In this document: positions 25,901 to 28,900 of the stretch, piece by piece | Numbering within the stretch: position 1 is the first letter of the stretch | Layout: each line of letters begins with the position of its first letter | Origin: Gigantopelta aegis | Lineage: Eukaryota; Mollusca; Gastropoda; Neomphalida; Peltospiridae | Assembly (NCBI RefSeq): GCF_016097555.1 | Contig: NC_054701.1 | Span: 30,955,207 to 31,019,206, forward strand | DNA length: 64,000 nt | Direction of reading: 5' to 3' | Program-made: the position numbers and the translations under genes | The notes under the pieces: generated by a model | What the model was told of the DNA's origin: nothing | The model's input: the letters and a program-made list of their open reading frames with translations, nothing else | The model's database searches: none

Positions 25901-28900
25901 ATAACTCTGGATGAACTCTGTCTAAACTGGTCCTCTATGTAAACCGGACTGTTTCGATGGTACGAAGTGAGTGGTTTAGACAAGAGTCCACTGTATGTAT
26001 GTATGTGTGTATATATATACACACAGAAGTTACAACAGACAATGAAACTTACTGGTGACCCGCTTATTTTGTCAAGCCTGTAATAATATGAAATTATCCG
26101 ACATACAAGAACTAGGAAGTGAACAGACAATGTAAAGCCAAAAGGAGCTAGGATTAAAGTACAGGGCTAGCTCTGACACTCGCCAAATTCGCCAATTGTG
26201 AATTTTAAGAACAATCGATGAATCTTTTTTTAATTTGGTGAACAAAACAAATTGTGTAATAATTGATATTTTGTTGAAAAATACCTACATGTATATAACA
26301 CGTAGGTTTTGTATTTTATAGATAATTTGGTGAACTTTTCTGATCATTCAGAGCTAGCATTGAATCTGTTCTTTTTAGGAACTGCTTATAGTTGACAGAT
26401 TTGTTTAAACAAATGGCTAACTGAGAAAATTTAGGCTATGATGACAGATCTATTTTTCTCACTGCTGTGAAGAACAAAGAAGAAAGACCGACTTACCAGG
26501 AATAGCATAGAGAGCTCGACTGTTCTCTTGGTTACCTAGAAATGTGACTGCTTCGGTCTGGGCTCTCTGAAACCAAACAGAAGTAGAAATACTTAAGTTA
26601 AGTGTCTTAATAAATTACATAGCTCAGTAGTTTTTAATTCCATGCAACTAAAAAGTTTAAATTCTGCTTTAAGTGTAATAATTAAAGTAAAGATCGAAAT
26701 AAAAAACTCAGTGACATACATGTAAGTCTCAGATGGCCATATTGTGGTGTGAATGTTAGAAATATCACTCAAATGTTTGCATTTCAAAATATTTAAAACT
26801 AAAAACTGGTGTTCACCCATGAAACAACAAGTACATGTCACAATCTGCACTTTGTTAACAAGAGCAAATAGAAGGCAATATGATCATGTAAATGCATATG
26901 TGCTAGTAATACATGTCATTAATCTAGTGAGAAATGAATACACAGACTAACAATGTGTGGACAGTCTCTGGCATCAATTAGAACTTTATAATACATGTGA
27001 TTATCTCGTGAGAAATGAATACACAGACTAACAATGTGTGGACAGTCTCTGGCATCAATTAGAACTTTATAATACATGTGATTATCTCGTGAGAAATGAA
27101 TACACAGACTAACAATGTGTGGACAGTCTCTGGCATCAATTAGAACTTTATAATACATGTGATTATCTCGTGAGAAATGAATACACAGACTAACAATGTG
27201 TGGACAGTCTCTGGCATCAATTAGAACTTTATAATACATGTGATTATCTCGTGAGAAATGAATACACAGACTAACAATGTGTGGACAGTCTCTGGCATCA
27301 ATTAGAACTTTATAATACATGTGATTATCTAGTGAGAAATGAATACACAGACTAACAATATGTGGACAGTCTCTGGCATCAATTAGAACTTTATAATACA
27401 TGTGATTATCTCGTGAGAAATGAATACACAGACTAACAATATGTGGACAGTCTCTGTCATCAATTAGAACTTTATAATACATGTGATTATCTAGTGAGAA
27501 AGGAATACACAGACTAACAATATGTGGACAGTCTCTGGCATCAATTAGAACTTTATAATACATGTGATTATCTAGTGAGAAATGAATACACAGACTAACA
27601 ATGTGTGGACAGTCTCTGGCATCAATTAGAACTTTATAATACATGTCATAATCTAGTGAGAAAGGAATACACAGACTAACAATATGTGGACAGTCTCTGG
27701 CATCAATTAGAACTTGGTAATAAAGGTGATTCTTTCCCTTCACTTCCTTCCCAACTTGTGCCGAACTGTCATCAAGATTTCTGTAATATTAACACAAAAA
27801 CAATAAATGAATGAGTAAACATTATCATTAACGGCCACAAACAAAACACATCAGCTACTGAGTATCAAAATAATGAATGATATATTCATTTTAAGGAAAG
27901 CAAAGGAATATTTATTTAATGACATGTTTCAGCAGAATTAAAACTATGATCTTTGGCTATTTCGACACTTGGAGTGGGATGTAGCTCAGTGGTAAAGAGC
28001 TCACTTCATGCTCAGTCAGTTGGGGTCGATCCCCATCGGTGGGCCCATTGGGCTAGTTTTTGTTCCAGCTAGTGCACCACAACTGGTATATCAAAGGCTG
28101 TGGTATGTGCTATCCTGTCTGTGGGATGGTTAAAAAAAAGATCCCTTGCTACTAATGAAACAATTTAGCAGGTGTCCTTTCTAAGACTATATGTAACAAT
28201 TACCAAATGTTTGACATCCAATAACCGATCATTAATAAATCAATGTGCTCTAGTGATGTCGTTAAACAAAACAAACTTTATTTTAACACTTGGTCAAGAA
28301 AGAGATGAGAATTCTGCTGCAACCACACACTACATGTACAGGGCTCACCCTGGATAAAAAATACCTGTAGCCAAAATATTAGCCAAATGGAATTTTTATT
28401 AGCCATATTGAAAATGCTTTAGCCAAAATTGTTTTACTGTATAGAGTATTTATATATGAATATGAAAATGCATCTTTTTCGGCTAATTGTGTACAAACTG
28501 GAATAAATCTGAATAACAAAACCGTATTACCTGATCAAAATCAAAGACAGCAATGGGGGTAGGGGCAGTTAATATATTACTTTGATTTTTCAGCGGTGGG
28601 AGGATGGGGTGATGCATTATCTTCAGAGTTGGAAGCCAGTACCCCCGTACACCTGCCCCCACTTCTAAGGCCTACGACAATAAATTAACAAACATACAGA
28701 AATATGGGGGGGGGTTAATGTTTATGGAGGGTGTTTTTTCTTTCTTCTTTTTTTCCCCCCCACAAAAAAAACTTGAGTGGGTTTTTTTTAAATATAGAGC
28801 TCATTATTTCTTGAAATAGTTATCTTTATGTTTAAATTGCTTTTTTTTTTTTTTTAAGTGACCCATCAATTCCCCACCCCCAACAATTTCATAATTTGAG

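Follow-up and report, generated by a model that had tools for sequence, protein, structure and literature searches.

Minisatellite-like tandem duplications of exon–intron boundaries, called mirages, are known from amphioxus (PMC3087553; PMC3902484). They have so far been described gene by gene in that animal, and both papers report that regular splicing is left undisturbed. We describe an array of similar architecture in the gastropod Gigantopelta aegis. The whole stretch of DNA analyzed (the window) is 64,000 nucleotides long, and the array lies at the boundary of exon 4 and intron 4 of POLDIP2. The parts of the gene that matter here are the following, with a slash marking each junction.

Positions 19962..37435, minus strand: complete POLDIP2 gene, 11 exons, with a 339-aa product from ATG to stop (tblastn and spliced model)
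Positions 27681..27780, minus strand: exon 4, 100 nt, with a phase 0 end; the final 42 nt (27722-27681) supply the exonic portion of the repeat (spliced gene model; PDB match to human POLDIP2 6zlx/6z9c)
Positions 27675..27680, minus strand: exon-proximal donor of exon 4, ATT/GTTAGT (unit listing and gene model)
Positions 26497..26566, minus strand: exon 5, with acceptor TTTGGTTTCAG/AGAGCC (protein match and gene model)

Exons were placed by tblastn with the human POLDIP2 sequence, followed by a corrected splice model. Of 309 residues of the spliced product that align with human POLDIP2, 228 are identical (two pieces of the human sequence used were confirmed on PDB chains 6zlx and 6z9c). Judged by its sequence, the gene is a full-length POLDIP2 orthologue. 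Joining 27681 to 26566 connects exon 4 to exon 5 and gives CPHI/RAQTEAV in frame; the human residues SQ, which lie between HI and R, are absent at this junction of the model. Two other possibilities for the exon 4 donor were rejected. By eye, only ATT/GTTAGT is in phase 0 and keeps CPHI/RAQTEA, and a U12-type donor does not fit because the exon copy has GTATTCCTTT rather than the consensus RTATCCTT (by eye).

A protein search of the assembly (1.15 Gb, 5216 contigs) gave 13 matches, of which ten fall at the window locus and three, all weaker, on another contig; no other full POLDIP2 copy was reported in this assembly. The three weak matches (G000:C2235:4168-5598) resemble POLDIP2 exons, are 62-72% identical, and in two cases hold an internal stop. 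They could represent a diverged paralogue, a pseudogene, or a contig of another organism. Within the window, two further features of the gene were observed. Exon 10 has the donor GTG/GCAAGT (20944-20952), making the following intron GC-AG, and by eye no GT choice keeps HMWGTYK in frame. Intron 1 carries a second minisatellite (33985-35164; 98 bp x 12, 99%), which is more uniform and lies off the modelled exons. At about 27980-28280 there is a tRNA-derived element, which we take to be of a type known from mollusc genomes. The G+C content of the window is 37.4%; another assembly of Gigantopelta aegis is reported to have 37.45% GC and a size of 1.29 Gb (PMC7736800).

The array itself comprises the following features.

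Positions 26907..27731, minus strand: splice-junction tandem array, 81 bp x ~10.2, 97% matches (TRF on the window and unit listing)
Positions 26946..27599, minus strand: nine further identical GTTAGT donors, each preceded by the exon end copied in frame (unit listing)
Positions 26919..27788, minus strand: 289 open codons running through the array up to an in-frame TAA (unit listing and ORF)
Positions 27717..27722, minus strand: TATTAC at the proximal edge of the array, in exon 4 (unit comparison)
Positions 26906..26911, minus strand: TATTAC at the distal edge of the array, in intron 4 (unit comparison)

Read on the minus strand, the unit consists of the last 42 nt of exon 4 and the first 39 nt of intron 4, which start with GTTAGT. 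The splice signal stands at the end of exon 4 itself and nine more times within intron 4, in near-identical context. The donors begin at 27680, 27599, 27518, 27437, 27356, 27275, 27194, 27113, 27032, and 26951, spaced by exactly 81 nt and each preceded by the same Ile codon. When the 30-nt pattern of exon end plus donor was searched with up to three mismatches allowed, ten matches were found, compared with none in each of 100 shuffles. The terminal copy has one additional nucleotide, and this 82-nt unit creates the in-frame TAA that closes the frame. Copies 5 to 8 are identical, whereas copies 0 and 9 each have private differences, as expected where edge copies escape homogenization. The inner copies read TATTAT in place of the TATTAC of both edges. 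The peptide of the exonic copy differs from that of the nine intronic copies, one of which has DDRD. When the array DNA was searched against the assembly, a single match was reported, the POLDIP2 locus.

An earlier note on this DNA had assigned the junction to exon 4 of POLDIP2 with an acceptor at 26566, and both assignments agree with the 11-exon model, the PDB matches, and the modelled start of exon 5. It had also described about ten copies of an 81-bp unit derived from a splice junction, with GTTAGT after the same Ile codon every time and a stop-free period divisible by three. TRF, the unit listing, the ten donors, and the frame open from 27788 to 26919 bear out this description, and the unit does straddle the boundary. 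The repeated peptide that it gave does originate from the exon end, but its wording has to be corrected for the difference between the exonic and intronic copies.

Exon 4 plus the array has an RNA folding z-score of -1.12, and 4 of 20 shuffles fold at least equally well, so its folding is unremarkable. Rfam showed no family above its gathering score in the window, Pfam gave five families for the read-through frame, all under their cut-offs, and a degenerate POLDIP2 pattern had no match in viral contigs. Each unit also holds an acceptor-like TTTCTCAC(T/G)AG, which ends only 28 nt after the donor begins. A tandem cassette exon built on this element (CTCAC(T/G)AG) was rejected, since its 53 nt would shift the frame and only 28 nt would be left for an intron running from a donor to the acceptor in the same unit.

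The frequency of tandem arrays was examined in two samples. Twenty 10-kb stretches (L002-L021), taken at set positions along contigs C1-C9, contain 25 arrays with a period of at least 30 and at least three copies, which span 19,320 of 200,000 bases (1,703 of which are N), or 9.7%. The second sample was drawn from the kinesin motor family on contigs C2-C15 and comprises the best 80 of 124 listed matches, roughly by score. These 80 regions have about 160 nominal exon ends, and the counts are approximate since the ends of domain matches are not exact exon ends. TRF and inspection revealed arrays that repeat the splice signal at no fewer than nine of the 160 nominal ends, a lower bound because inspection covered arrays no more than 150 bp from a match. 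Seven are at exon 3' ends and two at exon 5' ends, and the sample is too small to read this excess. The arrays are as follows.

L022:1-418 (G000:C9:83029289-83030540), donor side: 58 bp x ~7, TTTTCAG/GTGAGA, exon end GQIPLPTDGFS, downstream of a kinesin motor exon
L089:1-539 (G000:C7:6930957-6932088), donor side: 105 bp x 5 exact copies of an exon 3' end plus GTAAGT, with stops in frame
L095, donor side: 56 bp, eight GTAAGAAATG donors
L073, donor side: about 50 bp, GTAAGA
L067:174-453 (G000:C7:6877614-6878736), donor side: 60 bp x ~4.7, in frame, exon end ELREEVEALRSQLSAAQ plus GTATTT, with a stop in copy 2
L071, donor side: degenerate array, GTAATT
L090:602-1105 (G000:C10:85632402-85633506), donor side: exon end CTCAG followed by ATATCCTTTAAC, 12 copies, mostly 45 bp apart
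L080 (G000:C13:29256461-29257610), acceptor side, upstream of a kinesin exon: 46 bp x ~11, TTTATGACAG/ATG
L092:618-829 (G000:C7:6891147-6892263), acceptor side, upstream of a kinesin exon: 71 bp x 3, GTAG/ATCTGTGGC

The array at L089 has the same architecture as that of POLDIP2, but with a consensus donor and in-frame stops. The ATATCCTTTAAC repeats at L090 look like a series of donors of the U12 type (AT-AC). Arrays at L062 and L065 and a 20-bp array at L092 were dropped as the splice signal is not repeated in them, and in eight other regions (L023, L036, L045, L056, L058, L086, L094, and L096) an array lies near the exon and not over its end. Among the nine junction arrays, the nominal period is divisible by three in three cases (105, 60, and 45 bp), as chance alone would predict. 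Of the seven donor-side arrays, six (all but L022, period 58) were read through from the exon frame, and all six meet stops.

For comparison, a point placed at random has a 3.7% chance of falling no more than one unit from the end of an array (TRF, period at least 20, at least two copies), which predicts 5.9 of 160. The nine arrays found are above this number if anything, but not clearly more. By the same measure 0.74 arrays would be expected at the twenty junctions of POLDIP2, and one is present. The earlier note had called an origin from a splice junction unusual. With nine of about 160 kinesin exon ends alike in this genome, and with named examples in amphioxus, this view does not hold.

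Taken together, our analysis makes it probable that the POLDIP2 array is a mirage minisatellite, in which the exon-proximal donor at 27680 is used and the other copies are spliced out with the intron. The array looks like a tolerated by-product of a genome rich in tandem repeats and not like a device for making protein variants. It could have begun when a stretch across the boundary of exon 4 and intron 4 was by chance duplicated locally. In this first step two copies of TATTA(C), one in the exon and one in the intron about 82 bp apart, were probably joined through microhomology; TATTAC at both edges with TATTAT inside agrees with an initial duplication between short direct repeats. About nine further copies would then have been added by unequal exchange or by slippage during replication, with the inner ones becoming homogenized; identical copies 5 to 8 and divergent edges are typical of arrays undergoing turnover. 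The spacing may at first have been the 82 bp of the terminal copy, with the in-frame period of 81 bp arising from a later loss of 1 nt, although the opposite polarity would be equally possible. By analogy with amphioxus, the spliceosome most likely joins the 27680 donor to the acceptor before 26566 to yield the ordinary 339-aa protein. Copy number would be expected to vary between individuals without much effect.

An error of long-read assembly or gap filling might also expand an array of this kind, and the locus is known from a single assembly for which no second haplotype has been reported. However, the copies hold distinct and ordered variants, the assembly contains many such arrays, and at both edges the array runs into unique sequence within a coherent gene. 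An artefact is accordingly very improbable, even if the exact copy number may be off.

Another alternative is that the donors are graded. If the nth donor were used at an appreciable rate, n-1 in-frame modules of 27 residues would be inserted, and the array would be an expressed coding repeat of variable copy number. Ten identical phase 0 donors in an open frame are what this reading calls for, and the weakness of the exon 4 donor could favor the use of several. Moreover, among VNTR-made intron changes in human segmental duplications, 66% are reported also to have a transcript that keeps the repeat in the exon (PMC2812944). The copies show no sign of constraint at the codon level, however. They differ at eight substitutional sites (leaving aside columns displaced by the additional base in the terminal copy), two synonymous and six non-synonymous. 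Synonymous changes are 49 of the 243 possible, so ~1.6 of eight would be expected without selection, and variable sites occur at 4 of 42 positions in the exonic part and 4 of 39 in the intronic part. Purifying selection between copies was therefore not seen, since the ratio of 2:6 matches the expectation without selection, with the little power that eight sites provide.

Openness of the frame also carries less weight than it might seem. Among random 39-nt stretches of POLDIP2 introns, 43% have no stop in a given frame, and allowing one third for the period, a unit that is both in frame and open has a chance of ~14%. The copies share this property by descent, so ten open copies amount to one event. 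We regard the in-frame open unit as a lucky by-product, owing to which a distal donor, if now and then used, would leave the reading frame intact. In addition, the chance share of in-frame periods and the stops met in kinesin junction arrays argue against graded donors, as does the 829-nt exon that donor 10 would give. On balance, we consider use of the donors in this graded manner unlikely.

The place at which such modules would enter the protein is the end of strand beta4, adjoining the beta4-beta5 loop. In human POLDIP2 this loop, which the insertion point abuts, is described as flexible, as holding PIP2, and as absent from the crystal density (PMC8138528). By the offset in PDB numbering, Gln135 of the human protein would be the Q of YYQ. 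AlphaFold2 predicts the read-through frame to be a confident beta-rich repeat (mean pLDDT 82, pTM 0.84). Confident beta-solenoids are a reported artefact of AlphaFold2 for perfect repeats (PMC11795689), but an antisense control with TAA read as Q was poorly folded (pLDDT 37) and did not reproduce the artefact. Taken alone, the predicted fold gives no ground to dismiss the peptide. That donors 1 to 10 would produce a full ladder of POLDIP2 proteins, each step adding a beta4-like module of 27 residues beside the PCNA-binding loop, is nonetheless quite unlikely. If it were true, protein length would differ between individuals according to array copy number, and an expressed repeat would have been born from a splice junction. 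If it held genome-wide, ladders of this kind would be available at several percent of exon ends.

The strength of the donor bears on another proposal, in which the array serves as a decoy for U1 or the spliceosome or compensates for a weak site, ten weak donors raising U1 occupancy and either aiding recognition of exon 4 or delaying splicing. By a donor matrix, ATT/GTTAGT scores 1.5, the lowest of the ten donors of the gene (the others range from 3.7 to 11.5), and its pairing with U1 is poor at -1.5 kcal/mol, compared with -9.1 for the exon 5 donor. Sixteen GT sites in exon 4 and intron 4 score at least as high as this donor, and array donors account for 10 of them. The surroundings of the ten are nearly identical, and only distance from the exon 4 acceptor marks the first, a point against preferred use of the 27680 donor. 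A donor this weak is compatible with many weak sites aiding one another, without showing it. By the same matrix, 27.5% of the GT dinucleotides on this strand score at least equally well, so a tenfold weak site adds little. Other arrays repeat stronger-looking donors (GTAAGT, GTAAGA, and GTGAGA), giving no sign that arrays form at weak ones, and junction arrays occur at a frequency near that of random placement. Such a role is highly unlikely in our estimation. The earlier note had offered graded donors or a U1 decoy as the explanation, and neither gained support from copies that show no codon-level constraint, a frame this readily open by chance, and the lowest-scoring donor of the gene.

If the array is a mirage, as we favor, its interest lies in the genome that carries it. 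Arrays take in about 5-6% of the sampled exon ends (9/160 nominal), some with at least five consensus-like donor copies. Such a genome offers a natural test of how one donor is chosen by the spliceosome from among several identical ones, and of whether new introns or coding repeats originate from junction arrays. The POLDIP2 array, with ten identical in-frame donors and no stop between them, is the cleanest case seen. Among open-licence PMC papers searched by title and start of abstract, no report of a molluscan equivalent was found.

The array can be placed among several described systems. Human genes modified by minisatellites in segmental duplications are similar in that expansions, some at exon–intron boundaries, alter gene structure (PMC2812944); those reported cases are exon or intron differences between paralogues with transcript support, whereas the present case is a single gene. 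The Rogers model of intron gain, as reported for potato RdRp (PMC4974935), likewise rests on a boundary-spanning tandem duplication that copies splice signals. In contrast to that model, in which a duplicated AGGT supplies both splice sites, the listed POLDIP2 units contain no AGGT by eye, and no new intron with its own exon is seen. In coding VNTRs, such as mucin repeats, the repeat is part of an exon and is translated. The POLDIP2 array shares with these a period divisible by three and an open frame near coding sequence, but its extra copies lie beyond the first donor.

The closest likeness is to the amphioxus mirages of Adh3, the globins BflGb6 and BflGb9, troponin C, and PGBD5. In these, as in POLDIP2, the unit spans the boundary, the splice signal is repeated, and inner copies are reported to be homogenized whereas edge copies diverge (PMC3087553; PMC3902484). 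A length that varies among haplotypes or cells is a further trait of the amphioxus type. The POLDIP2 array differs in having 10 copies, compared with 6 and 3 in two reported haplotypes of BflGb6, and in its period divisible by three and open frame. It also differs in its setting, which is another animal with mollusc-like repeats (SINE type) and a genome sample in which such arrays are frequent. As far as our search extended, the mirage is therefore a kind of array already known, and what is new is its non-chordate host and how common it is there.
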